The position numbers and the translations under genes were made by a program. Under the pieces are notes generated by a model. That model was not told the origin of the DNA, ran no database searches, and saw only the letters and a list, made by a program, of their open reading frames with translations. A stretch of 20,051 nucleotides of DNA from a virus: positions 1 to 20,051 of the IMG/VR virus record IMGVR_UViG_3300020160_002022; one strand, written 5' to 3'. Position 1 is the first letter of the stretch; every line of letters begins with the position of its first letter. Positions 2,072 to 20,051 of the stretch are shown in pieces.

Positions 2072-2473
2072 TCAGCCGAAGCGGTTGTCAGGAACGATGG
2101 TGATGGGGGTGGTCTCTTCTTCGTCGAGTTCCACGAGAACTGAAACGCCCAAGTTGGAGCCAGCAGTGCCGGAACCAATCTGGTCAATATCAACGCTCAA
2201 TAGGTCGCCAGCGGCGAAGGTGAGGATTTCAGGTGTACCGGCCAAAGTTGCAACAACTGCTGCAGCAGCAATGGTGGGACGATTGGCCTGGGTGGTGAAG
2301 ATGGTGGTGCCATTCTTGTTGATGTCAACAATAATGCTTGAACCTGCGGGTGTGGCTCCGACTCGGGCAGAGATTTTCTTGATTGTGCCACCGTAAGGGG
2401 CAACAACGAAAGCCTTACCGGCAGCAGCGGTGAGGACTCCGACGCTTTGGAACTGAAGAACTGCTGAACTCAT
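2072..2473 (-). CDS. Putative beta-rich virion protein, decoration or fibre type (133 aa)
   Basis: A small, Ala/Thr/Val/Gly-rich protein with almost no Lys or Arg clusters and alternating beta-strand patterns (for example GTIKKISARVG, SIIVDINKNGTTIFTT and GDLLSVDIDQIGS). This strand-turn-strand style is common in head decoration and fibre proteins of tailed phages, often with the VDINKNGT kind of turn. No catalytic motif or signal peptide is visible. The ATG has GGAG seven bases upstream. The gene stands alone between its own candidate promoter and a strong terminator, which suggests high-level monocistronic expression. That fits an abundant structural protein placed inside an otherwise recombination-type gene run. 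The assignment rests on fold-like appearance and context, not on a recognised family. Confidence 0.65.
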   Translation of the reverse strand: MSSAVLQFQSVGVLTAAAGKAFVVAPYGGTIKKISARVGATPAGSSIIVDINKNGTTIFTTQANRPTIAAAAVVATLAGTPEILTFAAGDLLSVDIDQIGSGTAGSNLGVSVLVELDEEETTPITIVPDNRFG

Positions 2474-2521
2474 ATTTTTTCTCCGTGTCTAGTGTTGGTT
2501 ACGACAAATAGACTTTACTAC

Positions 2522-2550
2522 ATTAAACGGCCCCCGTAGTGAACAATCAA
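2522..2550 (-). promoter_or_regulatory. Sigma70-like promoter for the virion-like gene
   Basis: On the minus strand TTGATT (2550-2545) is followed after exactly 17 bases by TTTAAT (2527-2522). These are 4/6 and 5/6 matches to the -35 and -10 consensus with ideal spacing. The start of transcription would fall near 2515, giving a leader of about 40 bases before the ATG at 2473. No transcription data are available here, so this is a prediction. Confidence 0.6.
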
Positions 2551-2567
2551 TCCAAATTTATGGCGAT

Positions 2568-2876
2568 TTAACTATCTCTTTCCCAGCCATGCTTGGCCAA
2601 CCCAAGGTCAAAGGCTAGTTGGGGCTCACGGCCTATGCGGTTATGGCACTCGCGACATACCGCCATAAGATTAGGCTCATCGATTATTGAGCCGCCTTGG
2701 GACCGTCTAACAATTTCGTGAATATCCACACTGCCTCGCCGTACATACGAAACTTTGTCGTCGTGTTTGGCAAATTTCGGGCATGCCTCGCAGTATGGGC
2801 GCTCAGAAAGCAGACGCTCAACAACTTCTCGGCGTATTACATATTCTTTTTCGCGTTTTTTACTGCGCCTACGCAC
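2568..2876 (-). CDS. HNH endonuclease (102 aa)
   Basis: A small HNH nuclease. The core is VDIHEIVRRSQGG (His53 the likely general base), then Asn69 in PNLMAVC, then His78 in CRECHNRIG. A zinc knuckle is formed by Cys29/Cys32 (CEAC) and Cys74/Cys77 (CREC). The first 20 residues are strongly basic. Such short HNH proteins are common in tailed phages; in HK97-like phages one of them supports terminase cutting, and others are free-standing homing-type nucleases. The start is GTG at 2876 with AAGGA about seven bases upstream. The gene begins 13 bases after the stop of the preceding minus-strand gene, so it probably belongs to the same transcript, which ends just before the promoter at 2522-2550. 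Confidence 0.9.
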   Translation of the reverse strand: MRRRSKKREKEYVIRREVVERLLSERPYCEACPKFAKHDDKVSYVRRGSVDIHEIVRRSQGGSIIDEPNLMAVCRECHNRIGREPQLAFDLGLAKHGWERDS

Positions 2877-2889
2877 TAGTACGTCCTTG

Positions 2890-3399
2890 CTATAGGAGGG
2901 ATACGTCTATCTTATCAAATAACCATTTATCCGATAAAGAAGCCCATAGTGCTTCGTCAATAGGGGTTGGCTCTAGGTCGTGCTTGTCCATTAATTTGCG
3001 ATGCTCATAAATTGCACGCTTATAGAATTCAATCACTTCCCATGGACTGGCCTCTGGGGCTACCCCTGTCTCAATCATTTTAGTGACTTCATCCAAGCGC
3101 TTATTCACGTGAAATAAGAATCTTTCAACACGAAGACGGCGGTCCGCATAGGCTCCATGCATTTCTTTCTGCATCCGCTTGCTGCCTATGTTCTCAAACC
3201 GACGCTCATCTTCGGCTTCTGCTCCCGCTATCTGCTCAATCTGTTCGTTGAGGTTGTCTGTTAGGGCGATAAGCGCTCGCTGCCACCTACTCCAGTTGTC
3301 GCGATGAAGTAGCACATTGCGCTGCATGGGAGACAACTTGTTTTTGACTTCCTCTGCGACCATATAGGCCAAGGCATCGTCACTAATAGTATCTGTCAT
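2890..3399 (-). CDS. Unknown helical phage protein (169 aa)
   Basis: Not recognised. The protein is hydrophilic and predicted by eye to be largely helical: an N-terminal acidic region (TDTISDDALAYMVAEEV), a central segment with many charged residues around 50-110 including RFLFHVNKRLDEV, and a C-terminal region with WEVIEFYKRAIYEHRKL followed by EALWASLSDKW. I chose the ATG at 3399 because it forms an ATGA overlap with the stop of the Cas4-like gene, and AGGA lies eight bases upstream. Longer in-frame starts at 3417 and 3408 have no ribosome site. The tight coupling to the nuclease gene suggests a shared function in recombination or replication, but nothing in the sequence shows which. Confidence 0.75.
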   Translation of the reverse strand: MTDTISDDALAYMVAEEVKNKLSPMQRNVLLHRDNWSRWQRALIALTDNLNEQIEQIAGAEAEDERRFENIGSKRMQKEMHGAYADRRLRVERFLFHVNKRLDEVTKMIETGVAPEASPWEVIEFYKRAIYEHRKLMDKHDLEPTPIDEALWASLSDKWLFDKIDVSLL

Positions 3400-4187
3400 T
3401 TTTTCCATCCTGGGCATATTGACTTATAGGCACACCAATCACATAGGCGAGACTTGTTGTGTGCAAACACCCCAGTTTCACATGCCTTTTGTATTGCGTC
3501 GTATGTGCCTTGAACGTAGTTTAAGGTATTCGTAAAATCTTCAGGTACGAGTTTATGTTGGAAAATTGCCCCATCCTTAAGATAGAGCAACTTAATCTCG
3601 GAGGCGTCTGCTATCTCTAAATTCCTCAACAATGTTGCATAAATTTGGAGTTGCAAATATTTATCCACTACCCATATTTTTTTCTGGGGTGTTTTGCCAG
3701 TTTTGTAGTCAGAAACACAGACACCATTTTCTGTGCCATCAAGCCTGTCAATAAAGCCCTTAACGGTAGCGGTACCAATGAGTCCGTTAACTTCTGTCTC
3801 TATCCCCTTGACCTCAACGGTCGTAGGGTCTTCAACTTTGAAGAGATTTTCAACGCACCACCACGCTGACCAGCGAAACCGATTAACCTCAGTATCTTTA
3901 ACAAAACCCTTAATTCTATTGGACCAATCACCGGTTTCCCAAACTTGACGGGCTAGTGCTTTGGCATAATCAATAGTGCGTTCGTTAAATGGTAGAGCAT
4001 AGAACTCTTCCAATGTCTCATGAACGAAGTTGCCCAAGAGTGTCGCTGATGATGGCAAATCTGGTATCTGGTCAATTTTGTTAAACTTGAATTTTAACGG
4101 ACATTGATTGAAGGTCCCCATTGATGATGCGGACAGGTATGGGGGAGGCGTGAACGGTGGTCCCCCAACACCATCTGACAAGGTCAC
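3396..4187 (-). CDS. Cas4/RecB-like PD-(D/E)XK exonuclease with Fe-S cysteines (263 aa)
   Basis: PD-(D/E)XK nuclease of the RecB/Cas4 type. Motifs in order: Cys29 in FNQCP, a His at about 56 in GNFVHETLE, Asp147 in GFIDRLD, the catalytic VSDYKTGK (Asp160, Lys162), a QxxxY-type QLQIY at about 179-183, and the cysteine cluster Cys249, Cys252, Cys258. Cys29 plus the three C-terminal cysteines are the usual 4Fe-4S ligands of this family. The family degrades one strand of duplex ends, and in phages it pairs with an annealing protein, here the Rad52-like product just upstream (a two-component recombination system like Red). The start is GTG at 4187, four bases after that gene's stop; its stop overlaps the next ATG. 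There is no CRISPR array, so this is not CRISPR adaptation. Confidence 0.9.
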   Translation of the reverse strand: MTLSDGVGGPPFTPPPYLSASSMGTFNQCPLKFKFNKIDQIPDLPSSATLLGNFVHETLEEFYALPFNERTIDYAKALARQVWETGDWSNRIKGFVKDTEVNRFRWSAWWCVENLFKVEDPTTVEVKGIETEVNGLIGTATVKGFIDRLDGTENGVCVSDYKTGKTPQKKIWVVDKYLQLQIYATLLRNLEIADASEIKLLYLKDGAIFQHKLVPEDFTNTLNYVQGTYDAIQKACETGVFAHNKSRLCDWCAYKSICPGWKK

Positions 4188-4190
4188 GAA

Positions 4191-5018
4191 TCACTCTTCA
4201 ACGATGATTTGTGAGCCAGGGAAACTAATCCTTGTGCATTCCTCAATGAGAGCCATGAGGATTTGTGGCGTTGCCGTCTCTAGGGTTGGCTTCGGTGCGC
4301 CATTGGCAAACTCGTTCCAGAACTGGCCCAACTGTGCTTTTTGTTCGGCGTTGAATGAGCCACTCAGTGTTCGGAATTGCTCCCACAGGGCAGCAACCTT
4401 GGGGTCAATCTGTGGTCGTGACTGCGCCATATCGTGCTCAATCTCAATGCTGAGTGCTTCATCAGAGCGAGCGAGGTATAGGGCTACACCGAATTGTTGA
4501 GCAGCCTTTTTGAGTGCGTCAGAAACAGCGCCCTTAAACTCGTCGCCAAGGTCAACAATTTCCCCTGCTTTGGTTCGCTTAATCTTTTGACCTCCGAAAC
4601 CGTCTTTAGTCACTGCCATCCAGCCATCGCCACCGTGTGTACTTAGGCGAACATGGGCGACAATGAAATCGGGGTCTAGTGGGTCGCGTTCGCATCTAAT
4701 GATTTCGGAAGACCAGCCTGCAATGCCGAAGCAACGATTAAGACGCGCAATAACTTCACTAACGGGGATATATGTGAGTGCCGTACCGCCCTTACGAAGT
4801 TCCCGCTCCACTTCCGGAGGGAAGGGTTCGCTCAAGTCCATGAGAAGGCGATGACCATCTTCTTTACGCTTTTGCTCGTCCTTGGCCCGCTTCTCGGAAT
4901 AAAAAGCATCTTCCGCAATTCGTTCCTGCAGGTAGTTATGTGTTACTTCGGGTAATTCGCTGTGCACTTTTTCGTCTCCATTTATCTCATTGGTCGGTTG
5001 TTTTTTTGCTGTTGCCAT
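4191..5018 (-). CDS. Rad52-family single-strand annealing protein (275 aa)
   Basis: The core at about residues 62-185 matches the Rad52/Rad22-like pattern: LTYIPVSEVIARLNRCFG followed by IAGWSSEI (81-106), strands through FIVAHVRLSTHGGDGWMAV, and the conserved helix GDEFKGAVSDALKKAAQQFG at 158-177. These proteins form rings on single-stranded DNA and promote annealing. The C-terminal 80 residues are a looser helical tail, where such proteins often bind an SSB or a partner nuclease. I chose the ATG at 5018 because AAGGA lies six bases upstream; a longer in-frame reading to 5087 would overlap the preceding gene and has no such signal. The adjacent Cas4/RecB-like nuclease is the natural exonuclease partner. 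Confidence 0.87.
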   Translation of the reverse strand: MATAKKQPTNEINGDEKVHSELPEVTHNYLQERIAEDAFYSEKRAKDEQKRKEDGHRLLMDLSEPFPPEVERELRKGGTALTYIPVSEVIARLNRCFGIAGWSSEIIRCERDPLDPDFIVAHVRLSTHGGDGWMAVTKDGFGGQKIKRTKAGEIVDLGDEFKGAVSDALKKAAQQFGVALYLARSDEALSIEIEHDMAQSRPQIDPKVAALWEQFRTLSGSFNAEQKAQLGQFWNEFANGAPKPTLETATPQILMALIEECTRISFPGSQIIVEE

Positions 5019-7140: not shown

Positions 7141-9165
7141 ATGGCATGGAACAAAACTGAAAATAAATCACTCGAAAATCAAGCGCAAAAATCTGCATTT
7201 GGTCCGGGTGGAACGGTTGCTCAAAATGCCTCGTACGTAGGCAAAGGGTATCGTGACCCATGGGATATTGAGCGAGCCTATAAAGAGGGCATGCAAAAGG
7301 TCACCTGGGTTGCACGGTGCATCGATGCCATCGCTGGCAACCAGGCAAGATTGCCTATTGTCTTACGAAAAGATAACTCGCCTGACGGAATGATTGTCAA
7401 AGGTAAGACAGCAAAAAATAGTGGTTTACTAGACATCCTGAACACCAAATCTAATATTGGTGAAAACTCTTTTATCTTTAGGTACAGAGTCTCATCACAA
7501 CTCCTACTAGGAACGCGCGGAGTCTTTATTGAAAAGGTGCGTGGACGTGATGGGGGCATAATTGGACTAAACCTGCTCCCCCCGCAGTCAACCGCCCCAA
7601 TCCCTGACCCAAAGACATTTGTTTCTGGCTACGAAGTACTGATGCCCAACGGTGACAAGGTCATCATGAAGCCAGAGGATGTGTGCTGGATTCGTAGACC
7701 ACACCCAATTGACCCATATCTTTCGCTCACGCCGATGGAGTCAGCGGGTATTGCCATTGAGATTGAAAACCTTGCAAAGTTATACAACAGAAACTACCTA
7801 CTCAACGACGGTCGTCCTGGTGGATTGCTCGTTTTACGTGGGGAAATTGATGACGACGACAAGGATGAACTACGTAACAGGTTCAGAGGCAACCTCGGTC
7901 GCGTAGGTCAAACAACCGTAATTTCCGCTGATGATGGGGTTGACTTTGTTGATACATCATCAAGCCCACGAGACGCCGCCTATATTCAAATGCGCCAGAT
8001 TACAAAAGAAGAGATTCTTTCTTCATTCGGCGTTCCGGAATCAGTTATTGGTAATGCTGCGGGCAGAACGTTTTCAAATGCAAGCGAAGAAATTCGTGTT
8101 TTTTGGAATGAAACAATGTCTCCGCACCTTGAGGTCATTGCCCGTGCGTTAGATGAACTTGACGCAGAGCATTATATTGATTTTGATACTTCAAGTGTTC
8201 CAGTCCTAATTATTGCAAAACAAGAAGTTGAGCGATATTTGCTGGATGAATTGCGTGCTGGACTCATTTCAGTCAACGAATATAGAACTGGCACTGGGCG
8301 CAAGGATGTTGAGGCAGATTTGGCTGACAGCCTTCTTATGAACCCCAACCTCACTCCCATTGCCAATACAAAGAAGCCAATGGCACCTCCTCAAGAGGGG
8401 ATGCCAATGCCAGGAGCAGGCGGCCCAGGAATGCCGCCAGGTGCACCAGGAATGCCTCCAGGGATGCCAGGAATGCCTCCTGGAGCCCCAGGCGGAGGAA
8501 TGCCAGGAATGCCTCCTGATATGCCAGCAGCGCCTCCTCCGGACCCGACCACGATGGCTGGAGCAATGGCTCTTGAGTCTATGGGTGGTGGAGCGCCCCC
8601 AGGGATGGCGGCGATGGGCGCCAGCACTTCTGAAATCCTGACAAAAGATGATTCCAGTGAGACGTCACTGTCTAGGTGGACAGAAATTCTTGACCGAGGA
8701 ATTGAGCGAGTCTTAGAGCGCATGCAACGAGTTGTTATAGAAAAAATGAACGGGCAAAAATCTCGCAAGTCCTTAATGCAGGGCTCGCTTGATATTGATT
8801 CGGTTTTTTCTTTGGAAATCTGGCATAAACAACTAGAGGAAGACATTAAACCTGTTCTTTCTACGATTATCCGTGACTCTCAGGCTCTTTATTTTGAGAA
8901 ATCTGATGGCTACAGGATTCCCACAGCCCAAGATACGGTCATCAACATTGATGCGCAAATGATGCGAATTAAAGAAATTATCGACAATGTCCATACGCAG
9001 GTGGGGTCGGCAATCTATAACTCATACGGCATCAGCGATGAGGCTGCTCGTAATTCGGCCCTTCGTTCATCTGTGACTTCCATATTCATCGATGCAATCG
9101 CCAACATCAAGCCGCGAGTAGCGTCTGGCGAAGCCCGCCGAGCATGGGAATTTAGTCGCCCTTAG
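7141..9165 (+). CDS. HK97-family portal protein with Met-Pro-Gly-rich insert (674 aa)
   Basis: The portal forms the dodecameric ring at the capsid vertex through which DNA enters and leaves. Residues 1-400 follow the HK97-portal pattern: WVARCIDAIAGNQARLPIVL near 56-75, the clip/stem region SAGIAIEIENLAKLYNRNYL at 201-220 followed by DGRPGGLLVLRGEI, then ITKEEILSSFGVPESVIG at 287-304 and SNASEEIRVFWNETMSPHLE. Residues about 414-492 are a low-complexity insert of PGM-type repeats. Residues 500-674 form an extra charged helical domain with RWTEILDRGIERVLERMQR and a C-terminal DEAARNSALRSSV region; its role is unknown. Portals are often 400-500 residues, so this one is long. It starts two bases after the membrane-protein stop, without a clear ribosome site, and leads the protease and giant gene. 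Confidence 0.9.
   Translation: MAWNKTENKSLENQAQKSAFGPGGTVAQNASYVGKGYRDPWDIERAYKEGMQKVTWVARCIDAIAGNQARLPIVLRKDNSPDGMIVKGKTAKNSGLLDILNTKSNIGENSFIFRYRVSSQLLLGTRGVFIEKVRGRDGGIIGLNLLPPQSTAPIPDPKTFVSGYEVLMPNGDKVIMKPEDVCWIRRPHPIDPYLSLTPMESAGIAIEIENLAKLYNRNYLLNDGRPGGLLVLRGEIDDDDKDELRNRFRGNLGRVGQTTVISADDGVDFVDTSSSPRDAAYIQMRQITKEEILSSFGVPESVIGNAAGRTFSNASEEIRVFWNETMSPHLEVIARALDELDAEHYIDFDTSSVPVLIIAKQEVERYLLDELRAGLISVNEYRTGTGRKDVEADLADSLLMNPNLTPIANTKKPMAPPQEGMPMPGAGGPGMPPGAPGMPPGMPGMPPGAPGGGMPGMPPDMPAAPPPDPTTMAGAMALESMGGGAPPGMAAMGASTSEILTKDDSSETSLSRWTEILDRGIERVLERMQRVVIEKMNGQKSRKSLMQGSLDIDSVFSLEIWHKQLEEDIKPVLSTIIRDSQALYFEKSDGYRIPTAQDTVINIDAQMMRIKEIIDNVHTQVGSAIYNSYGISDEAARNSALRSSVTSIFIDAIANIKPRVASGEARRAWEFSRP
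8380..8616 (+). repeat. Low-complexity Met-Pro-Gly-rich coding repeat in the portal
   Basis: Repeated CCAGGAATGCC(T/G)CC units encode a run of GMPPGAPGMPPGMPGMPP-type residues (portal residues about 414-492). The repeat is nearly free of charged residues and looks like a flexible spacer between the portal core and its C-terminal domain. Near-identical DNA units suggest expansion by slippage. Confidence 0.85.
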
Positions 9166-9201: not shown

Positions 9202-9273
9202 CTATCTATTTGCCCCTAGTTGCACTCATAGTTGATGAGTAGAACTATTATTAAGAGCGTCGTTAGGAGCGGT

Positions 9274-10650
9274 ATGTCTACAGACCAAATCAGTTTCAAG
9301 GCACTAAATGGCCAGATTAATATTGATGAAGCACAAGGTATTGTCGAGTGTTTCGTTGCCGCAGTCGGCAACAAGGACTCAGTGGGCGATGTTGTCGCTA
9401 CTGGTGCGTTTACTGAAAGTCTCAAGCGCCGCAAGCCTCGTGTTGTTTGGGGGCACAGTTGGAACGACCCAATTGGTAAAGTTCTAGAAATCTACGAAGT
9501 TCCTACTAGCGACCCGCGATTGCCAATGAAGATGAAGCAAGCCGGTGTTGGGGGACTGTTTGCGAAGGTTCAGTTTAACTTGGCTACAGAAAAGGGACGC
9601 GAAGCATTCGCTAGCGTTGCCTTCTTCGGCCAAGAACAAGAGTGGAGCATTGGCTATAAGACGCTCAACGCAACATTTGACCCTGGCTCACAGGCAAACA
9701 TCCTTCACGAAGTTGAGTTGTATGAAGTGAGCCCAGTTCTACATGGAGCAAACCAACTCACCGGAACAATCTCTGTCAAGAGTGATGAGGGCGAAAAGTG
9801 TGGGGGCCCCATGGCCCATATGCCAAGCATGCCGTCCGGACCCGCCATTGTTGGTCGTCCAGTTCTTTCGCCGGTTGTTCGCCAGGTACATTCGCCCAGC
9901 CCACAGCGCCAACAGAGCCGTGAAGATATCTTTGAAGAAGGGGAATCACGCGTTCTCCCAGACGAAGCACGCAATGCTCTCGCCTTGGAACTAATGAGCA
10001 GGTCGCGCCTACCCCTAGACATCATTCACGCAACGGAAAACTCAGTCACCTTTAATCGCGATGCTGGAAATGGCAATTCAGTAACCTACAGACTTTCATA
10101 TCATCGTGAAGAAGAAACTGGCGAGTACATGTTTGGCAAACCAGAAAAAATTGGGATGCGCAATGAACAAAGCACGATGCCGTCGGCTCCGGTTGTTATT
10201 CCTTCGCAGATGCCTTCAATGCGCATGAACGTCAAGCCTGGTTCTGGCATGCCTACTGGGATGATGTTCCTTGCTTCTGGCGGCAAATCCCTGGATGAAG
10301 CATTGGATGAAGCCGCTGACGTCATTATTGATGTGGCGACGAGTGGCGGTATGGCTTTGCCCGCGGACAAATTGCAATACGCGATTGACCTTCTTCAGAG
10401 CATTAACGGCTCCAAGCAAGACCCTGCGGAAGAAGAAGTCTTTACGGTTCTCTGCTCACCAGATGAGGCGTACCAAGTAAAGAGTTTGCTTGACCCAGTC
10501 ATTGAATACCACCGACTGGATGCTGAAGTAGACAACCAAGGTGTCCATATCTCCAATGGCCTGACGCAAGAAGCAATCACCGCACTAGAGAACATCGCAC
10601 TCACGATTGATGACGTTCTCTACGGCCAGGCTGGTGGTTCAAAAAAATAA
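9274..10650 (+). CDS. HK97-type prohead protease with long C-terminal extension (458 aa)
   Basis: Residues about 8-170 are a U35-type prohead protease: QGIVECFVAAVGNKDSVGD, the catalytic-His motif VVWGHSW (His61 from this start), and the catalytic-Ser motif EWSIGYK (Ser125), then ELYEVSPVLHGAN. These proteases act inside the immature head, cutting scaffold and capsid precursors. About 285 further residues follow: a Pro/Met-rich linker, a segment with NALALELMSRSRLPLDII, another Met/Pro linker, and a C-terminal helical region with SLDEALDEAADVIIDVA and SPDEAYQVKSLLDPV. This extension is much longer than a bare protease and may act as a scaffold. I chose the ATG at 9274 because AGGAG precedes it, though the spacing (4) is short. 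ATG 9235 or TTG 9232 would add 13-14 residues. Confidence 0.9.
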   Translation: MSTDQISFKALNGQINIDEAQGIVECFVAAVGNKDSVGDVVATGAFTESLKRRKPRVVWGHSWNDPIGKVLEIYEVPTSDPRLPMKMKQAGVGGLFAKVQFNLATEKGREAFASVAFFGQEQEWSIGYKTLNATFDPGSQANILHEVELYEVSPVLHGANQLTGTISVKSDEGEKCGGPMAHMPSMPSGPAIVGRPVLSPVVRQVHSPSPQRQQSREDIFEEGESRVLPDEARNALALELMSRSRLPLDIIHATENSVTFNRDAGNGNSVTYRLSYHREEETGEYMFGKPEKIGMRNEQSTMPSAPVVIPSQMPSMRMNVKPGSGMPTGMMFLASGGKSLDEALDEAADVIIDVATSGGMALPADKLQYAIDLLQSINGSKQDPAEEEVFTVLCSPDEAYQVKSLLDPVIEYHRLDAEVDNQGVHISNGLTQEAITALENIALTIDDVLYGQAGGSKK

Positions 10651-10652
10651 TA

Positions 10653-13600
10653 TTGCCCGACTTTACTGAGTTAGGGCTCAACGCCGAATCTAAAGCACTG
10701 GGCGGGAAAATCGGCCAGCGTATTGGCGGTGGTCTTCGTGCTGCCCCTCCTGGGATGTCGTTCGTTGACGTAACTGGACGCGTAGATGCCGACAACGATG
10801 GAATTGTTTTTGAGGGGCTCCCCCTTGAACGGCCAATCATTCCACGATTCACCGTACCTACCAATTTGGCACGAAGTATCTCAAAACTGACCGAGGGTGA
10901 TGCCTTAGATATTGAGAAACAACGAAGGGCTGGCAATAGTCAAATATCATTTGATGAAAACAAGTTGCGCTCAATCGTAGAGACAGTAAGTGGCGATGCC
11001 GATTCTTTGGGCTCAGCGAATACTAGAACTCGCTTGAGCAAGCGAAGCACCATTGAAAGACCCTCTAGCGGCGACACTCCTGGCACTAGGTCAAAGATAG
11101 TTTCTCAATGGCTGGATGTCACTTCGTATGAATCATTCGGCGAATCGGGCAGGGAATTGGGGAGTACTTTTGGGCGAGTAGATTTAGAAAAGTTGCAAAA
11201 AGTACTACAAGGCGAACAATCCGCCCTATCAAAAACTATTGATGAATGGCAGAAAACGGGCGTATGGAACGGGGAAACAAACGGCGTTGCGATGCCGAGG
11301 GTGTATAACCCCAAAAAAGGCATAACGACGAATCTTTCGGTGGAAGAATTGGAACCATACAAAGACGAAATGGGTTCCAGATTCAATAACTATCTATCTC
11401 AGGTCGAAAAACAACTACAGCATGTAAATGACCGATTAGCAAACTTAGATAGAATGGAAAATGATGGAGATATTGCACACGTAAATGCTGTATCAATTCT
11501 TGACTTGCCGAATCTCAAGGACCTCGCCGAACGTGGCAAGAAAATAAGAACATCGCGTGGCGCTGACAGGGAGTGGTCGTTAACTGAAGCGGACCCCGAT
11601 GCGACGTGGTTGGTTCACACTGGTGTGCCAATACTTGAGAACGATGTTCTTGACCCGTCATTCACCTTGCCCAAGGGCGGCGACGGAACATACATGCGCC
11701 AAAGCATGGATACCCAAAGGCTCAATGGTTATACGCGAAACAGCATCATTAGTCGCTATGAGGAGGCGGAGCGCAATTTCAACGCCTATCAACTCGCGTT
11801 GAAGGAATATGATGAAACTGGAGTTTGGGATGGGCCAAAATTGGCCACAAATACAAGAGTTCCAGATAGGGATAGAGGCCGCAAGGAATATCAGACCTAC
11901 GTAGAGGGTCAAGATGATGCAAAAATTAATCCTGAATATTTGAGGAATATTGCTCGTGGCTATATCGATGACGGGCAAAGGGTGATGGCTCGGTATGAAT
12001 ATGCTTACCCGCTAGCAAAAGCAGGGAAAGAACATCTTAGTTACAGTCATGCGTCCTTCGGACCCAGCAGGGGATATGTACGCAATGACTTCCCAACAAG
12101 CAAAACATACCTCGTAAGAATTCCCAATGAAGAAATAGTAGAGGGGTTCCCGTCTCAGGAGTTTCAGATTTTTGATGCCAGAACACCAATAGCAAGTTTT
12201 GAGGTACCCAACCAGTTTAATCTTCCAAATATGACGGAGGCGGAAGATGCTTCTATCGCATTATTTGAAGAAGCCGCACAGAAACATATTTCAAGTAATC
12301 GCCTAGTCTCCAGCACTAGGTCGAGCCGCTCAAATCTCAGTTTGCGTTCAAGGTTTGAACCAACCGAAGCAATGAAAGAGAAAAAAATACGCAATGCTGA
12401 GAGATACGAAGCAGTGTTGCGTTGGAAAGAGCAGCACGCTGAAGACATGCTGGAACTCAATAGTGAACTCGCTAGTGTTATCGCACAGGCCAAGGCTGCA
12501 GTACAAGATGTCGACAAATCAAAACTTAAAAAAATATTTGGTTCACTCATGCCCGAATCGGAGGTGGAAGAACTTACCAGTAATCTTGCCAAGCGATTTG
12601 ACTTACTCAACAAGTCACTGCGGGAAAATCGTCGGCCGTTGTACGGACTTTTTGATTCATCAACTAACGAAGTTTTGCTTAACATTCTTCAAAATTTTGT
12701 CCCAGAATCTCCGGAACGAGATAGGACTATCAAGCAACTCAAAAAAGTAATTGCAGACAGGTCAAAATCATCACGACCAAGGTTGGGTGGAGAAGAACGA
12801 ATACTGGCCAATGACTTCATAAGTCCAGATGAATTCATTGATTCTGGCTGGTGGGGTGCTTGGCTTTATCCAGACGGTCGCATTTATCCAGTTGAGGGTC
12901 ATCAGAACGAGCATCTCTACGAAGATGCATTCGACGACGGCCTTGTTCGGTTGATATTTAATCCAGACGCCGGTCTTACTGTTGTTTCTACTGGAGCGTC
13001 CGATGACCAATTAAATGTCGTAGTCCAACTTGCTACTCTGGCTCGTGGGAAAGAACTCATATTCCACCATGAGGGCAACGAGGCCATCAAGGATTTTGGG
13101 CCTGAGGCTATTACGACTGGCGAGTTGGACCTATTCTCGAAACCAGCGCCAGAAAAAATCAAAAAGTTTATACAAACGCTAGATTACAGCAAAACTCCAG
13201 AGTTCATTCCAACTTGGTTAAGGCGAGAAAAAACTCCATTGCTTAGTACGAGGTCTCGTACGAGAACAACACAAGCGGTCGATGGCGAGATTCCGCGTCG
13301 TAACAGGATTGCACGTGGTCGTCGTGGCGAGTTGACGCAAGAAGAAGATATCGCCGAAGGTCTCGCGGAGATAGAAGAGGGACGGCAAGCGAGTCCATGG
13401 GAGAGGTATTCAATTCTCCAGAGTGATGACGGCGTCTACTATGCGGATAGAATTTCTCCCAAAGATGTCTCGCGCATGCGTGCTGGCAAACTCAAGCCAC
13501 CCGTGTATCCATTCTTTGCCCCACGCGGTGGTGGCAGTAATCAAGAAACTGGAGAAGGTTATTATTTCTCCGTTACTGGTCAAAAATTCAACGGTCGCTA

Positions 13601-16600
13601 TGGAGCGTCTGGAGCATTGGTTCGTCGCCGTCGTGGACGTTTTGGCGAGTATGAGTATCTACTAGCGCGTCGTGCTCCATGGATGAGTTCGGGCGGGGGA
13701 CAATGGTCATTCCCAGGTGGTGTCCATAAAGATAAAGACAGTTCCGAGATTCCGATGGAAACGGCAGTAACTGAGTTCAGGGAAGAAGTTGGCGGAGACC
13801 TAGAAGGCCTTACTCCGGTTTATTCTTATCGTGACCAGCGCGCACCAGACTGGGCCTACGACACACACGTCTACGAAGTAGGGCGACGAGACCTTTCTGA
13901 CATCAACGTACTTGATGGCGAGAATACCGAAGTTCAATGGTTTACCGCCAATGAGATTATGGGTCTTAATAAGAACGGGGAACTTCTCCATTCTTTTGGT
14001 TTAGTCGCTCCAGAAATATTCACTAACTCAGGAGATGATTCACTCATACGACGCGAGCCAGGTGGACTTGGGCGAATGTTTGGGAAGTTACGTGGCGGCC
14101 AACGAGAATCAGGCGAGATGGCGCTTATGTCTACTCGTTCCAGCAGGCCTCTATCTCCTACGGAAGATAGGCGACTCGCAGTTAAGGCGTTAGACCTTAG
14201 ACAGCGATTTGAAGCACTTATCAAAGAGATGCGAGACGAACGAATAGCAAAAAATGCTGCATTATTGAATATTGTTGACGACATTACCAAATTGGTAGAC
14301 GGCGGCTCTCTGACCAAAAATGAATTGGAGACAATAAGGCACATAAGTGCACGTGCCGACAATCCGCTCTACTCGCCTTCACTTACTCGTGACGTTCTAC
14401 TTATACGCCTGCAGCAAGATATTCTTCAGGTATCACGTGAGAGGGAGTTGACAGAAGACGAAACGAACCTACTGTCAATAATTAGTAATCAAATAGAGCG
14501 TAAATTCAAAGATACTGAGCCAACTCGTAGAAGCGTAGAAGTGCGGCCACTGCAGATGGAATTCATAACCCCTGAAGAATTTGCTGATTCTGGTTTTGCT
14601 GGAGCATGGCTATATCCAGACGGAACGGTCTATCCAGTTATTAACGAGCACGCGGATGAGCACGACATCATAAATTCATTTGATGATGGGATTGTGCGGC
14701 TCCGCCTATCTCACGAAAACTTAACGCGGTACCGTGACGAGCGAGAAGGGGCTCAATGGAATCAGATAAAGCCTTATATGGGCGTTGAATATGGTAATCG
14801 TCAATTTACGGATGAACAATTACAAGCGCTTGAGAGAATTTATGTTCGAAGGAAAGCGGGGATTCTTTCTTATTCAATCCACGACGAAGAAGAAATGGAT
14901 TTTGCTAGGCGCACAGGGCAAATGAAAATTGCTAAAAAAGATAAAGCAGTTACGCTTGGCACGCTTGATGCAAGGGAGCGAAGCGCTGTCGGGGACACCA
15001 TACGAGGCCAGATGGGCGATGCAAGCCCTCCAGTGCCGCGCAGCGAGGGCTACGCCTATGTCAGCACTCGAAGTTCGTCATCAATCAATTTGAGCGAACC
15101 CGATATGGGTAGTGACGGCGATATTGAGGATGTGGCAACGGAAAGCGGACTGATGTCAACTCGTTCACGACGTGGCAAAAACCGCAAAAAGTGGAATGTT
15201 ACTGGAGATAAAAAAGTAACTGGTGATATGAAGAAATTGACTCCCGAACAGGTCAGATTAGAGCAGGAACAAAAGCGCCGAGCAGCAAGAATTCCTGGAA
15301 AGCGTAAAGACGGACCATCGTCGCGAGAGTGGCTCAATGTAACCCGAAGTGCTGTTGCACCTGGAGCCAATGCCAAGGAACAATACATAAATAGTCTTTC
15401 GGCCACGAGGGCTGGCGGAGAACTCAAGGTAATTGGTCGTCCATTGTCGTCTCAGAATGCTAATGGCACCGTTTCTTATATTTCATTCGGCGGCGATATT
15501 AAGCCTGGAGATATTCTGCCAAATAACTTTATGCAGTCACTTGGGTCGCAAGGGGAATCACGATACTCGGTTGCGTCGGTTCAGCGAATGCGAGATGGGG
15601 TTAGTAAATTAGCCCTTAGGGACCTCATGACTGGCAAGGCTATTGCATCAGTCATTTCTGACGACCAGCAAATTCTAGACGCGAATCGTCCTGCGAGTAC
15701 ACGCAGTGGTCGTGTGAAGATACCCGCAGTGTGGCGAGATACGGTGGAGGACTTCCGTGCGGGCCTAACTGACGCAATAGTCATGCGAGTGCGCAACGCC
15801 ATGCAAGAAAGAGAAGACGTAGGAAATGAACTAAGTCAATTAGATGCACAATTTGATGCCAATAATCAAGAATGGCCAACAAGTGAAATGGAATATCGTG
15901 CTGAATTTTTGGATGACGCCAGACTTGCTATAACCCGAGAAGTAGAAGAAATGCTCGCCGCTGTACAGCACCTTGTGCGCGAAGAACGCCAAGCAGCATT
16001 AACTGCAGCATCTTTTAAGAAAGCAAAGAAACGGGCATCCATATATGAAGACAGATATGAAAAGTTTGAACTTGAGCCAGAAGATTGGGCTGATGTTTTA
16101 TCTCTACTCGAGTACGACCCAACACTAGAAAGAGCGCTTTTCGATACAGGACCGCAAGGCATGTCACGACAAGTTGGAATGAATCGAACTTCCGCATCGC
16201 AATTGGCAGATGAACTTAACAAGTTGACGGAGTACATTGGTTACATTGAGACTCTTGAAGTTGACTCAATCATTAATGGCAGGGATATTGATGAAGAAGA
16301 TTCCTCATTCATTGACAGGTCCGCGTCAGAGATTCTAGAAAACGCAATTCTTTCCGTTCGTCGCAAGAAGAAACTAGCCGATGCCAAAAAGGCCATCATT
16401 AATACCACGGCAACGGAATTGGACGAGCGCGCAGTGTTGGCGATATCACCCTCAACACGAAGTGTCGCTTCTCCCCGCATAACTAGTAAAGCCACAGTCA
16501 AAATGGGGAATGACTTACGTAATTCTGAGCAGTTATTCCCAGGTAGGGCAAGCAAGTTTTCTAACTCCAATGTCTCATTCGTTGCATACGACGGCAATCG

Positions 16601-19259
16601 CAATGAACTGATTGTTGGCAGAGACGGCGGAATTTATCGCTATGGCGGAATGAACGATGACATTATTGATACGTTCACCAAAAGCAGAAAGCCTATTGAT
16701 GCGTCAATAAATCAACTGGACAAGGATTCTAGTTATACGGTGTCACCGGACGGAAGTCGTCGTGGCCTCGTCCCAGGACTTACTCAACTCCTTGAACGTG
16801 ATGCGCGTAGGGTAAAACTAAGTTCCGCAGAGACATCTACGATAAAGAATCTAGCAAAGGCATATTCCGCCTCGTCTGCGGACGAGATTGTCCCCATTGA
16901 CCCAATAAGGGCTCACTCCATTGCTAAGAAACTGTTTGCCAACCAAGAGGCTGCTGCTGCCATAAATATCATTGATGCCCTTGAGGACTCTAGGAGCGCA
17001 CGTCTTTTGCCAGAAGGAATAGCCCCCATGTATCGCGGGCTTCCAAAAACTCCTGCTAGCAATATCAGTATCGTTGTAGACAACAATGACGCTGGAATAG
17101 TTCGCGAAGAATTGGCAGACTTGAAAAAGCGTTTTGCCAATAATCGTGAGGTTGCTTCGGCACTAGATGTGTACGACAAACTTATTGCTGCGGGCCAGAG
17201 CGGCGGACTTAAGACCGCGTTCAGTATGTCCCCAGCAGAATATGAGTTTATTCGCGATGGCGTCAGGACTCTACGTTCGTCCAATATGAGTAATGGGGTA
17301 GCGAGTATTGCCCTACTTGACCATGCGGCATCATCTCCAAAATTGAAATTTGATGCAACCAATTTCCCTCAAACCAATGGGACCGACGTTGGGTCGCTAT
17401 TCAACTCGGGAGCACCCTACTCGCTCAATAAAGAGCGCCGTCAAGAATTGCTCGACTGGGCCAAAGAGTCAAATATGAAGGTTGCCCAATCATTGGCTGA
17501 TGAAAAGTTTAAGACAATAGCCACATGGAAGTCTCTTGAGGCCCTGAGGGAATTCTCTATGCCTACACGTTCGGCGGTTGGTCCATCGGCGGCAAAGAAG
17601 GGCAGCAAGGAAGTCGGCACGCCATTCGCAGAGATGGCACCACCTGATTATGCCGATATGGCACCGCTAGACAAGTTGTCTTGGATTAAGGAAAACATAG
17701 TTCAAGAAGGCGGCAATAAGGGCTTGCGCAGAGATGAGGGCATTAAGCAGGCAAAAGAAATAATGGATGCCGTCAACGTTATCCAGGACAATCTGAATCG
17801 TCGTGAGAATTATGAAAACGTAATTTACGGCAATGGCTCTGGCACGGCTGCTACCCCCAATTTTGCAAAATCATGGAGTTCACTCTCGACGGGAACAAGG
17901 TCAATTCTTGACGACGAGTCAAGAAGCGTCTATTCCAATGACTTCCGTAATCTCAATAACTCTCAGGCTGCGGATATTGTTCGTCGCCTACGACCCGAAT
18001 CGGATAAAAGGCGAACTGGGGTTTATGAAATACCCGAAAACGACCTCAGCCTAATATGGGATGATGTTATGACCTCAAGTCAACAACTACTTGATGCCAT
18101 TGATAAGCGACGTGAACTCGGACTTGAAGATGAAGTGTTGGATGTCCCAAGAGTCCCCGCTCGCGAGTCACGAGTGCAACCCCCCAAGGCCCCCGGTCTC
18201 GGCGGGATGCAATTACCGATGTCTATTAGTGGACCTGAAAAGACAACTCAGACAAGGACCCCTGACTCACCTTCAAACCCAACGGCAGCAAAAGTTCGCA
18301 GACAACGCATTGCTTCTGGAATAAGCGATGCCGTCAAGGAATATCAAGACAAACTTGATTCTGTTTACTCTAATAGGTATGAAGATAATCGCCATTCACA
18401 GGTATGGAAAGATATAGATAAGTTATTTGCAGGCGATAATGGCGCTGGTGTTGATTTTGGCATTGGGAATATAGATGATGCTATTGACATTCTGGATGAC
18501 TACCTAACCAGCGATTTTGTTATGGACGCCGTAGATGGTAAGCCCAACGGGTTTGCTCCACGCGCATCGGTAATTGCCAAAAAATATGTACAAGAGAGCA
18601 TAGAGAGAGCGTCGGGCACTCGTGACTACTTGAATAAGTTGCGCAACGAATTAATGACTGATGAATTTATCAACAAAACACCTGGTCGAGGCGCATCGCT
18701 GGTTCGTACTATGCCAGAGGCAGATACTCCCCCGCAGACTCGGTACGTTCCAAAAATACGTGGACGAACAATTGATTCATACTTTGCTGCTCGCAAAAAT
18801 GAACTTTTATTGAGTACTCGCTCTACTCGGTCCTCGGTCAAAGAGGGTAGAGCAGAGATACGAGCAGAGCGTACAAAATTCAATGAACTCCTTAACTCAT
18901 TAGACAGGGAAATAAGTAAAGCCGATGACCCTCGTCATGTGGCAGCATTGAAAACTTTGAAAACAACCTTGACTCGCCAGAAGTCAGGCAAGTTGAGCGA
19001 CAAGAGAACTAACGCTGGAGCACTGTATTTAACGCAAGATGAAATTGATGACATTATTGAAGCACTTTATGTTGCTCTAGATAGACAGGTCGAGCGAGGC
19101 AGCGAGGCCAGGATTGCGTTATTTGGAGAAATGGCTGAACTTATGGCCAAGGCTGCTATGGCTACTTTCATCAACAAGACTTCAGAACCAGTCAACTCAC
19201 GGACGGTCACCAAGATAAATGAGAACGGCGAAGAGGTTGAGATAGCGCTGAATGATTAG
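10653..19259 (+). CDS. Giant multidomain protein with Thr-Arg-Ser linkers, probable virion polyprotein (2868 aa)
   Basis: A single uninterrupted 8.6 kb frame, TTG start two bases after the protease stop with no own ribosome site, so probably translated by coupling. The protein is hydrophilic, with no signal peptide or membrane segment seen. In order: an N-terminal region with a DxDxDG loop (residues 45-50); a 147-554 segment with two TGVW(D/N)G repeats (202, 389); cassette A (554-865); a Nudix domain (about 965-1130, box 1023-1048); cassette B (1160-1471), a paralogue of A; short basic linkers (1502-1682); a KTSC-like segment (about 1970-2030); and helical C-terminal parts. Twelve xTRS linkers (residues 144, 554, 865, 1160, 1471, 1502, 1563, 1682, 1934, 2304, 2414, 2721) divide these parts. 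It sits where scaffold or capsid genes usually follow the protease. I infer a packaged polyprotein, possibly cleaved at the linkers; an uncut internal or injected polyvalent protein is the main alternative. Confidence 0.85.
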   Translation: MPDFTELGLNAESKALGGKIGQRIGGGLRAAPPGMSFVDVTGRVDADNDGIVFEGLPLERPIIPRFTVPTNLARSISKLTEGDALDIEKQRRAGNSQISFDENKLRSIVETVSGDADSLGSANTRTRLSKRSTIERPSSGDTPGTRSKIVSQWLDVTSYESFGESGRELGSTFGRVDLEKLQKVLQGEQSALSKTIDEWQKTGVWNGETNGVAMPRVYNPKKGITTNLSVEELEPYKDEMGSRFNNYLSQVEKQLQHVNDRLANLDRMENDGDIAHVNAVSILDLPNLKDLAERGKKIRTSRGADREWSLTEADPDATWLVHTGVPILENDVLDPSFTLPKGGDGTYMRQSMDTQRLNGYTRNSIISRYEEAERNFNAYQLALKEYDETGVWDGPKLATNTRVPDRDRGRKEYQTYVEGQDDAKINPEYLRNIARGYIDDGQRVMARYEYAYPLAKAGKEHLSYSHASFGPSRGYVRNDFPTSKTYLVRIPNEEIVEGFPSQEFQIFDARTPIASFEVPNQFNLPNMTEAEDASIALFEEAAQKHISSNRLVSSTRSSRSNLSLRSRFEPTEAMKEKKIRNAERYEAVLRWKEQHAEDMLELNSELASVIAQAKAAVQDVDKSKLKKIFGSLMPESEVEELTSNLAKRFDLLNKSLRENRRPLYGLFDSSTNEVLLNILQNFVPESPERDRTIKQLKKVIADRSKSSRPRLGGEERILANDFISPDEFIDSGWWGAWLYPDGRIYPVEGHQNEHLYEDAFDDGLVRLIFNPDAGLTVVSTGASDDQLNVVVQLATLARGKELIFHHEGNEAIKDFGPEAITTGELDLFSKPAPEKIKKFIQTLDYSKTPEFIPTWLRREKTPLLSTRSRTRTTQAVDGEIPRRNRIARGRRGELTQEEDIAEGLAEIEEGRQASPWERYSILQSDDGVYYADRISPKDVSRMRAGKLKPPVYPFFAPRGGGSNQETGEGYYFSVTGQKFNGRYGASGALVRRRRGRFGEYEYLLARRAPWMSSGGGQWSFPGGVHKDKDSSEIPMETAVTEFREEVGGDLEGLTPVYSYRDQRAPDWAYDTHVYEVGRRDLSDINVLDGENTEVQWFTANEIMGLNKNGELLHSFGLVAPEIFTNSGDDSLIRREPGGLGRMFGKLRGGQRESGEMALMSTRSSRPLSPTEDRRLAVKALDLRQRFEALIKEMRDERIAKNAALLNIVDDITKLVDGGSLTKNELETIRHISARADNPLYSPSLTRDVLLIRLQQDILQVSRERELTEDETNLLSIISNQIERKFKDTEPTRRSVEVRPLQMEFITPEEFADSGFAGAWLYPDGTVYPVINEHADEHDIINSFDDGIVRLRLSHENLTRYRDEREGAQWNQIKPYMGVEYGNRQFTDEQLQALERIYVRRKAGILSYSIHDEEEMDFARRTGQMKIAKKDKAVTLGTLDARERSAVGDTIRGQMGDASPPVPRSEGYAYVSTRSSSSINLSEPDMGSDGDIEDVATESGLMSTRSRRGKNRKKWNVTGDKKVTGDMKKLTPEQVRLEQEQKRRAARIPGKRKDGPSSREWLNVTRSAVAPGANAKEQYINSLSATRAGGELKVIGRPLSSQNANGTVSYISFGGDIKPGDILPNNFMQSLGSQGESRYSVASVQRMRDGVSKLALRDLMTGKAIASVISDDQQILDANRPASTRSGRVKIPAVWRDTVEDFRAGLTDAIVMRVRNAMQEREDVGNELSQLDAQFDANNQEWPTSEMEYRAEFLDDARLAITREVEEMLAAVQHLVREERQAALTAASFKKAKKRASIYEDRYEKFELEPEDWADVLSLLEYDPTLERALFDTGPQGMSRQVGMNRTSASQLADELNKLTEYIGYIETLEVDSIINGRDIDEEDSSFIDRSASEILENAILSVRRKKKLADAKKAIINTTATELDERAVLAISPSTRSVASPRITSKATVKMGNDLRNSEQLFPGRASKFSNSNVSFVAYDGNRNELIVGRDGGIYRYGGMNDDIIDTFTKSRKPIDASINQLDKDSSYTVSPDGSRRGLVPGLTQLLERDARRVKLSSAETSTIKNLAKAYSASSADEIVPIDPIRAHSIAKKLFANQEAAAAINIIDALEDSRSARLLPEGIAPMYRGLPKTPASNISIVVDNNDAGIVREELADLKKRFANNREVASALDVYDKLIAAGQSGGLKTAFSMSPAEYEFIRDGVRTLRSSNMSNGVASIALLDHAASSPKLKFDATNFPQTNGTDVGSLFNSGAPYSLNKERRQELLDWAKESNMKVAQSLADEKFKTIATWKSLEALREFSMPTRSAVGPSAAKKGSKEVGTPFAEMAPPDYADMAPLDKLSWIKENIVQEGGNKGLRRDEGIKQAKEIMDAVNVIQDNLNRRENYENVIYGNGSGTAATPNFAKSWSSLSTGTRSILDDESRSVYSNDFRNLNNSQAADIVRRLRPESDKRRTGVYEIPENDLSLIWDDVMTSSQQLLDAIDKRRELGLEDEVLDVPRVPARESRVQPPKAPGLGGMQLPMSISGPEKTTQTRTPDSPSNPTAAKVRRQRIASGISDAVKEYQDKLDSVYSNRYEDNRHSQVWKDIDKLFAGDNGAGVDFGIGNIDDAIDILDDYLTSDFVMDAVDGKPNGFAPRASVIAKKYVQESIERASGTRDYLNKLRNELMTDEFINKTPGRGASLVRTMPEADTPPQTRYVPKIRGRTIDSYFAARKNELLLSTRSTRSSVKEGRAEIRAERTKFNELLNSLDREISKADDPRHVAALKTLKTTLTRQKSGKLSDKRTNAGALYLTQDEIDDIIEALYVALDRQVERGSEARIALFGEMAELMAKAAMATFINKTSEPVNSRTVTKINENGEEVEIALND
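12312..13244 (+). repeat. Cassette A of the giant protein (311 residues)
   Basis: Runs from the STRS linker at residue 554 to the one at 865. The first 150 residues are helical and charged. Then follows FISPDEFIDSGWWGAWLYPD starting at residue 722, YPVEGHQNEH, FDDGLVRLIF and, near 785-812, DDQL...KELIFHHEGNE. Cassette B repeats the same order and length, so the two arose by duplication. I do not recognise the domain. Confidence 0.8.
13245..14129 (+). other. Nudix hydrolase segment of the giant protein
   Basis: This segment lies between the STRS linkers at residues 865 and 1160. It holds a Nudix fold: GASGALVRRRRGRFGEYEYL, then GGGQWSFPGGV and the box G1023-x8-E1032-x7-T-E1041-F-R-E1044-E1045-V-G-G, followed by THVYEVGRR and TEVQWFTANEI. 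Nudix enzymes cut nucleoside diphosphates linked to another group (NAD, ADP-ribose, Ap4A, dNTPs, capped RNA). The metal-binding glutamates are present, but the usual Arg of the REUxEE motif is Thr and the first loop is about three residues longer, so activity is probable but not certain. The substrate cannot be told from sequence. If the flanking linkers are cut, it would be released as a protein of about 290 residues. Confidence 0.8.
14130..15062 (+). repeat. Cassette B of the giant protein (311 residues)
   Basis: Runs from STRS at residue 1160 to STRS at 1471, exactly as long as cassette A. After a helical first half it has FITPEEFADSGFAGAWLYPD from residue 1304, YPVINEHADEH, FDDGIVRLRL and, near 1390-1416, DEQL...ILSYSIHDEEE, matching cassette A position by position. 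The first halves have diverged more than the FIxPxEF domain. Confidence 0.8.
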
Positions 19260-19277: not shown

Positions 19278-19415
19278 CAGCATATAATTGCTGTATACTC
19301 TAAACCCAGAAGACAATTTTATATTTAACCTTTCCACTGGGGAGTCGTCATTGCGACTACTATCTCATTGGAGCAGAACAGTACGCTGTGGTCCAACCTA
19401 CAAGGAGTCGCAACA
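19278..19415 (+). promoter_or_regulatory. Leader region with hairpins and -10-like boxes
   Basis: The 156-base gap after the giant gene is the longest on this strand and is densely patterned. TATAAT (19283-19288) is an exact -10 consensus and forms the loop of a perfect CAGCA/TGCTG hairpin (19278-19293); TATACT follows at 19294-19299. No matching -35 is seen at the usual distance. Further on, AGTCG/CGACT (19343-19347, 19354-19358) can pair around a TTG, and GGAGTCG occurs twice (19341-19347, 19404-19410), each time next to a possible start codon. It probably gives the next gene separate, strong or regulated expression. Confidence 0.5.
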
Positions 19416-19419
19416 ATGA
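19351..19419 (+). CDS. Possible 22-residue leader peptide, overlapping the next start
   Basis: A short frame starts with TTG at 19351, six bases after a strong GGGGAG ribosome site (19339-19344). It encodes 22 residues (LRLLSHWSRTVRCGPTYKES, then two Gln) and stops with TGA at 19417-19419. That stop overlaps the next gene's ATG as ATGA, the usual arrangement for translational coupling. The start codon lies in the loop of a small hairpin. It may be a regulatory leader or chance. A rival reading is that the ribosome site serves an upstream in-frame extension of the next gene from a rare ATT at 19350. Confidence 0.3.
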   Translation: MRLLSHWSRTVRCGPTYKESQQ

Positions 19420-20051
19420 GTTATCAGCAAAAGGCAATCGTAAAAATTGATAGTGATGGTGCGGTTGCTAAGTGCGCCAAGGGCCTAGCAGGCACCGAGT
19501 GCGGCTACAAGGCTGGCGCCAAGGTGTGCGGCAAGTGTGGCGCAATGGCCGTCGAGGTCAAGATGGTGCCCGTCAACGAGATGGCAGAAGCCCCAGAAGA
19601 CGAATTATCCGAAGAGGAATATAAGCAGATGATGCGAATGCGTCGTGCCAACAAGGAAATGGGCATGGCTATGGACGAAGACATGGAAGACGAAGAGGAT
19701 TCTGCAGTCTCCAACTATCTTGAGCCCATGAAAAAAGGCGGAATGCTTATGCCAATGCCCGCCGATGAAATGATGGACGAAGAAGAAGAAAAAATGGCCA
19801 TGGCTTACGAAAAAATGATGCGTATGCGTAAGGGTATGGGCATGGGTATGGGCGAAGAAGAAATGATGGACGACGACGAAGAAGTTATGGCCACCCCCAA
19901 GGGCATGCGCTGGGGTAAGCGTATGACGTCCTATAAAGAAGAAGACGAAGAAATGATGGAGGGTGACGAGGACGAAGAAATGATGGAAGACGAGGAAGAC
20001 GAGGACGAAATGATGCCCATGCGCCCCGCTGCTTCTGGAATGGCCCCCGAC
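19416..20051 (+). CDS. Met/Asp/Glu-rich protein with N-terminal Cys4 zinc-ribbon-like motif (partial, at least 212 aa)
   Basis: An open frame from ATG 19416 (AAGGAG eight bases upstream) to the window end with no stop. Residues 1-46 contain Cys20, Cys29, Cys38 and Cys41 (C-x8-C-x8-CGKC), a zinc-ribbon-like spacing. From about residue 55 the sequence is extreme in composition: runs of Asp/Glu mixed with Met pairs (EEYKQMMRMRR, DEMMDEEEEKMAMAYEKMMRM, KGMGMGMG, DEDEEMMEDEEDEDEMMPM). It has no hydrophobic core that I can see. Its place after protease and giant gene and its acidic, probably flexible nature would fit a scaffold, or the N-terminal scaffolding part of a capsid precursor whose fold lies beyond the window. 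Neither is shown by motif. Confidence 0.8.
   Translation, partial: MSYQQKAIVKIDSDGAVAKCAKGLAGTECGYKAGAKVCGKCGAMAVEVKMVPVNEMAEAPEDELSEEEYKQMMRMRRANKEMGMAMDEDMEDEEDSAVSNYLEPMKKGGMLMPMPADEMMDEEEEKMAMAYEKMMRMRKGMGMGMGEEEMMDDDEEVMATPKGMRWGKRMTSYKEEDEEMMEGDEDEEMMEDEEDEDEMMPMRPAASGMAPD

Follow-up and report, generated by a model that had tools for sequence, protein, structure and literature searches.

Why should a single phage protein of 2868 amino acids contain the tripeptide Thr-Arg-Ser about a dozen times, and what could recognize it? The initial annotation of this DNA took the repeats for cleavage sites of a virion polyprotein, processed by a neighbouring prohead protease. The window analysed here (the whole stretch of 20,051 nucleotides) belongs to a group of contractile-tailed, aquatic phages from uncultured viral contigs. 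No relative of the S78 protease was found in a bacterial genome collection, so that no host can be named.

The giant protein and its separators

The gene order is portal, S78 protease, giant, acidic protein, further giants and capsid protein. The protease gene had been described as lying directly upstream of the giant and indeed ends 2 nucleotides before it. The frame of the giant itself is uninterrupted, running over 2868 codons from a TTG start. The features on which the analysis rests are the following.

7141-9165, plus strand: portal gene
9232-10650, plus strand: gene of the S78 (HK97-type) prohead or capsid maturation protease, 472 aa (Pfam PF04586, PHROG, motifs)
10653-19259, plus strand: giant polyvalent-type polyprotein, 2868 aa, TTG start (open reading frame; homologues L001, L010, L013, L014)
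10677-10889, plus strand: N-terminal module APPGMxFVDVTGxxDADxDGIVFEGxPLERPIIPRF, recurring in other giants of the phage group (alignment of 20 loci)
11082-11093, plus strand: separator tag GTRS, STRS in L001 (site alignment)
11085-12314, plus strand: module, residues 145-554, a cassette shared, at 77-82% identity, with LSSG and GM[SR]S phages and flanked there by their tags
12312-12323, plus strand: separator tag STRS
12315-13247, plus strand: module, residues 555-865, paralogue of 14133-15158
13245-13256, plus strand: separator tag STRS
13248-14132, plus strand: module, residues 866-1160, with Nudix domain at 13611-13967 (PF00293, E 2e-8)
14130-14141, plus strand: separator tag STRS
14133-15158, plus strand: module, residues 1161-1502, paralogue of 12315-13247, with a weakly kept STRS at 15063-15074
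15156-15167, plus strand: separator tag STRS
15159-15698, plus strand: basic module, residues 1503-1682 (33 K/R, 17 D/E)
15696-15707, plus strand: separator tag STRS
15699-16454, plus strand: module, residues 1683-1934
16452-16463, plus strand: separator tag STRS
16455-17564, plus strand: module, residues 1935-2304
17562-17573, plus strand: separator tag PTRS, the same in homologues
17565-18815, plus strand: module, residues 2305-2721, with an internal GTRS at 17892-17903 that is TRD in homologues
18813-18833, plus strand: double separator tag STRSTRS
18816-19256, plus strand: C-terminal module, residues 2722-2868
19368-20051 (window end), plus strand: acidic protein gene, its start inside the window

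The minus strand holds, between 255 and 6864, genes for ParB_N, RuvC-like, HNH, PD-(D/E)XK, Rad52-like and terminase proteins, which are transcribed in the direction away from the head block. The acidic protein, found between the first and the second giant (in contig G004 at 40860-42464), is very acidic and rich in DEEM, with four cysteines in its N-terminal part and a C-terminal domain that is conserved; a role as scaffold is possible.

The giant consists of a Nudix domain and about nine other modules, most of them without a Pfam match. The Nudix domain, which had been called complete, occupies residues 987-1105 and is recognized above the Pfam cut-off, but its box is imperfect: G-x8-E-x7-T-E-F-R-E-E-V-G-G, compared to GX5EX7REUXEEXGU, has a longer loop and a threonine in place of the first arginine, while the glutamates are retained. 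The two cassettes initially regarded as paralogous are so, with 43% identity over 115 aa (E 1.5e-18). AlphaFold2 models were uninformative, the alignments being too shallow (mean pLDDT of 45 for residues 131-1210 and 35 for the Nudix module), and a Foldseek search with them matched nothing below E 0.3.

The initial count of 12 xTRS sites, eight of them exactly STRS, can be confirmed. There are 13 TRS, or 12 if STRSTRS is taken as one site, and eight non-overlapping or nine overlapping STRS, far above what is seen in shuffled versions of the giant: TRS has a mean of 1.1 copies (maximum 7) and STRS of 0.1 (maximum 2) in 5000 shuffles, and no 4-mer whatsoever reaches more than four copies in 1000 shuffles. 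It had also been noticed that the codons differ at every STRS site. In fact the codon strings differ at all 13 TRS sites, and codon identity among them is 0.222, where 0.216 is expected for independent choice. Selection acts on the tag peptide and not on the DNA.

The homologues of the giant, all from viral contigs, are 57-89% identical to it with most or all of the length aligned. STRS is strictly kept in them at residues 555, 866, 1161, 1503, 1683, 1935 and 2722; the site at residue 2305 is PTRS throughout, and that at residue 145 is GTRS in the window and STRS in L001. Eight sites were selected for their conservation; there the tag residues never vary (100% invariant), the preceding residue is invariant in 12% and the following one in 38% of cases, and the value for the whole protein is 55%. 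The linkers ahead of residue 1161, for example, read GEMALM, DAALA, DAVLS or LASS, followed by a constant STRS. As in a polyprotein, a short site at module borders is thus better kept than its flanks, and the expectation that TRS would be the best-kept part of the linkers is borne out. A preference for a preceding hydrophobic residue, on the other hand, did not survive the comparison, as few positions vary more than the one preceding STRS.

Three of the TRS sites are doubtful when the homologues are considered: the STRS at residue 1472 is poorly conserved, the TRS at 2415 is replaced by TRD in homologues and is probably no tag, and the TRS at 1564 lies inside a conserved stretch and not in a linker context. 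Two or three of the sites beyond the conserved ones thus look fortuitous. Twelve linkers releasing about a dozen proteins of 30-410 residues had been proposed; the separators remain, but since these three sites are doubtful, their number is about 9-10 and they delimit ten segments of 144-417 aa.

Could the tags simply be neutral linkers that are homogenised by DNA exchange, or recombination points for the shuffling of cassettes? The modules are clearly shuffled and their borders coincide with tags, as such an origin would predict. Yet the codons of the tags are almost as different as chance permits, which rules out homogenisation at the DNA level, STRS is fully kept where its flanks vary, and the tape measure protein, discussed below, is tagged as well, which counts against neutral linkers. 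This explanation is very improbable. Identical tag codons are mildly in excess in contigs G013, G032 and G002, which may reflect recent duplication of modules.

One tag per phage

The cassette of residues 145-548 recurs at 77-82% identity in two giants found in a scan of viral contigs, L003 (3305 aa) and L008 (3293 aa), which contain no TRS at all. Segments kept without TRS were the case named beforehand as speaking against cleavage sites. The case occurs, but other tags stand in: L003 carries LSSG ten times and L008 carries GMSS/GMRS, and the border that reads PGTRSKIVSQW in the window is TLSSGSTILSQW in L003 and VGMRSKIVSEW in L008. Since the cassette bears the tag of its own phage in each (LSSG, GMRS), TRS itself is not special. 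The substitute tags at the same borders strengthen the interpretation as separators.

A blind search for the most over-represented 4-mer in the giants returned STRS, GMSS/GMRS, GMRS (15 copies), LSSG, GLAS, GFAS/GFSS or SGAM. Further scans, for which the N-terminal module, the cassette and the protease served as queries, extended the set of loci to L093, and the tags were counted in ten long related phage contigs, each read nearly whole. Each of the ten has a single dialect: STRS, GM[SR]S, GMRS, GLAS, GF[AS]S, LSSG or SGAM. Their giants contain 213 own tags as against 21 for five foreign tags combined, that is, 1.90 own tags per 1000 aa and 0.037 per foreign tag; in the remaining proteome the own tag (0.029 per 1000 aa) is at the background of the foreign ones (0.025). 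At least two giants of one contig have the tag in common, with 9, 9, 5 and 10 copies of STRS in four separate giants of G004.

The position of the tags is equally consistent. They mark module ends, as claimed from the start for TRS, and they avoid Pfam domains. Of the ends of shared modules, 33% have a tag no more than 25 aa away, compared to 16% by chance (none of 1000 shifts gave as high a value), and only one of 70 tags is found inside a Pfam domain where 5.7 would be expected. In alignments across dialects, a tag faces the own tag of the other phage within 8 columns in 57% of cases, as against 8% for random columns; the flank GRPGxRPLxG, for instance, is constant across phages and is followed by MRS, FSS or LAS. 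Doubled tags occur (STRSTRS; GFASRTGAGGGGFAS).

A later scan matched at least 599 stretches with relatives of S78. Among the matches listed, about half of 24 non-redundant held-out loci have a significant tag, SMRS, SSRS, SKSTT and FSSGR being new; the other half have no significant exact tag. The repertoire across lineages thereby comprises STRS, SSRS, SMRS, GMRS, GMSS, GLAS, GFAS, LSSG, SGAM and SKSTT. The last shows no clear pattern common to the others, and a general hydrophobic-x-Ser consensus was dropped once it had come to light.

What reads the tag

A short peptide that is uniform at 8-40 sites in several different proteins, is selected as such, does not occur in single-module proteins and is exchanged between phages as a whole set must have a trans-acting reader, and we regard reading in trans as almost certain. 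Because the tags lie between modules, outside folded domains, and are sometimes doubled, a protease site is the simplest interpretation; on this sequence evidence the tags are probably cleaved.

Where cleavage would take place is constrained by the tape measure protein, the gene of which lies on the opposite strand, after the tail sheath gene. Each of the ten phages has its own tag in this protein if the near-form GM[AT]S of G003 is included, with 16 exact own tags where 2.6 are expected from foreign tags (P about 2e-8). All are within two variable stretches, and the conserved core has none. As this is a tail protein, the initial idea of a cleavage confined to the prohead had to be abandoned: any cut must reach a tail protein as well, and probably occurs before or during assembly, in the cytoplasm.

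A tag outside the head is also what one would expect if the tags were not cut at all but served as docking motifs, one per module, for a phage-coded carrier such as the portal, a scaffold or a tail component that threads or stores the chains. A binding partner accounts for a private code and for reading in trans as well as a protease does. It is at odds, however, with single-module proteins of the same genomes being without tags beyond background, and with the location of tags at module borders, sometimes in doubled form, as befits separators. Docking seems quite improbable to us.

If the tags are cleaved, the candidate nearest at hand is the S78 protease (PF04586, E 1.3e-13; PHROG head maturation protease, 1.5e-28), the catalytic His and Ser motifs of which, WGH and EWSIGY, are invariant in ten phages. 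The GMRS, GLAS, GF[AS]S, SGAM and LSSG phages have tagged giants with an S78 domain fused to their N-terminus, and the dialects cluster on the S78 tree, with 10 changes compared to 22 in shuffles. The initial proposal that the neighbouring prohead protease cuts the linkers thus retains its genetic linkage, adjacent or fused, but not a matching change in the enzyme. Between dialects the catalytic domain retains an identity of 73-100%, with 88-93% among the STRS, SSRS, SMRS, SKSTT and GM[SR]S phages (L195, L196, L198 and L018 compared with window positions 9292-9795), which does not look like an enzyme with a changed specificity. Furthermore, the likely cut site in the capsid protein, NGANMxx, is constant in all dialects, and a dialect-specific capsid site had to be rejected. 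With a catalytic domain that is near-constant while the tags change, and a capsid site that ignores the dialect, S78 as the reader is unproven; it is nevertheless the likeliest enzyme, with somewhat better than even odds of making the cut.

The constancy of S78 would be explained if the tags were cut by a metalloprotease instead, either the HExxH protein located early in the second giant or the MPTase-PolyVal modules, before packaging or after injection. In nine of ten phages (G004 30730-40890 and eight counterparts) the giant encoded after the acidic protein has an HExxH at residues of about 550-620. These zincins diverge much more than S78, to 19-30% identity between most dialects, while kindred dialects retain 40-55%; a reader that changes might show such a pattern. 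Self-processing of polyvalent proteins by MPTase modules has been proposed by Iyer et al. 2017 (PMC5512222). Still, the SGAM phage has no HExxH at the corresponding place, the association of zincin and tag is no tighter than the general kinship of the phages, and the first tagged giant is fused to S78 and not to the zincin. We hold a metalloprotease to be a serious alternative but an unlikely one, though less so than docking; sequence co-variation brought no decision between S78 and zincin.

Taken as a whole, we assign a probability of roughly 0.65 to the tags being phage-specific cleavage sites that separate injected modules and are read in trans, with S78 as the likeliest enzyme. According to this model, modules that are probably enzymes and host-directed factors would travel in the virion and enter the host together with the DNA. 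Their linkers would hold a short tag (STRS in the window), private to the phage and common to its giants and tape measure, which is read in trans, likeliest by proteolytic cleavage during assembly. The chain of the window would thereby be converted into about ten free proteins, presumably by the phage's own S78 protease, encoded just upstream and in many relatives fused to the giant. It could further be imagined, and here we see the chances as evenly balanced, that this is a private processing code: one tag of 4-6 residues per phage, at about 8-40 sites over polyproteins and tape measure, rewritten when lineages diverge and adopted by modules that move, so that the phage's own protease, and not that of a rival, controls the release of the arsenal.

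Known systems and biological meaning

Across the giants of the group, Pfam recognizes MPTase-PolyVal, ArdC-N, zeta toxin, RNase T-type exonuclease, UvrD helicase, KTSC, pentapeptide repeat and Nudix domains, so that many unrelated catalytic or binding domains are united in one polypeptide, and the giants are placed amid late structural genes. The GM[SR]S and LSSG phages have the class-typical MPTase-PolyVal and ArdC-N in sister giants; in the window giant Pfam detects no class-typical polyvalent domain and no MPTase. On the basis of the domain set and of the place between portal and capsid genes, the giants are polyvalent proteins in the sense of PMC5512222. They make up about 30-45% of the coding sequence read in several phages and, by analogy, would be packaged in the virion and injected.

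In the sections of Iyer et al. 2017 (PMC5512222) concerned with this class, polyvalent proteins are likewise giant, multidomain and encoded near head genes, with ArdC-N, MPTase-PolyVal, nuclease and Nudix modules in shuffled architectures that the authors liken to polyproteins. Those sections describe no recurrent linker tag and propose embedded metallopeptidases instead, whereas the present phages have a private code that is genome-wide and common to several giants and the tape measure. The same sections cite DarA and DdrB of phage P1, internal head proteins subject to proteolytic processing, of which DarA counteracts host restriction; this resembles the fate supposed here, although no repeated tag is described for them there. 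Comparable as well is the prohead protease gp245 of SPN3US, which cuts several head and ejection proteins at A-x-E, some of them repeatedly (PMC10052503). One protease, a short motif and multiple cuts per protein are shared with the reading of the tags, but the gp245 cuts strip propeptides instead of freeing many mature modules, 42 head proteins stay uncut, and A-x-E is unrelated to the present tags.

The closest cultured relatives of the S78 protease, at 38-42% identity, are found in phages of Actinobacteria: Gordonia phages DalanDe, GMA6 and Hanem, Brevibacterium phage Cantare and Streptomyces phage Gilgamesh. In none of the five was a repeated tag found, and several neighbouring functions are encoded by separate genes in these phages, unlike in the present group. 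Fusions and giants exist there too. DalanDe gp27 (L112 11632-16533), a protein of 1634 aa annotated as protease, has the domain on its C-terminal side with about 1100 unexplained extra residues ahead, and Gilgamesh gp48 (L117 16979-30853) is a hypothetical protein of 4624 aa upstream of the S78 gene.

Some further proteins of the group deserve mention. The DUF6321 domain is encoded by a separate gene in G004 (2260-4227, L123), and this region has a close match inside the S78-bearing giant of the SGAM phage (G032 27789-39038). Collagen-like proteins with GATG/GPTG repeats, up to 2215 aa long, occur in most phages of the group (for example, G013 100611-107255 and G021 64960-69636). A protein of about 680 aa, with no Pfam or PHROG match, has homologues in all ten phages and directly precedes the third giant in G004 (24467-26518).

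What is already known comprises polyvalent proteins, prohead proteases and the cutting of head proteins at several sites, and the private separator tags would be the new element; no description of phage-private tags common to several giants and the tape measure was found in the open-access literature.

Polyproteins that are cut apart are typical of retroviruses and of the RNA viruses of eukaryotes, while phages mostly use separate genes. Should the tags indeed be cut, tailed phages would use tagged polyproteins to deliver injected effectors in large sets. It is an evolutionary puzzle that some 30 dispersed sites change together while the catalytic domain of the protease hardly does. Since the tag indicates the limits of modules in proteins with hardly any annotation, dozens of candidate anti-defence and take-over proteins can be delimited in silico.
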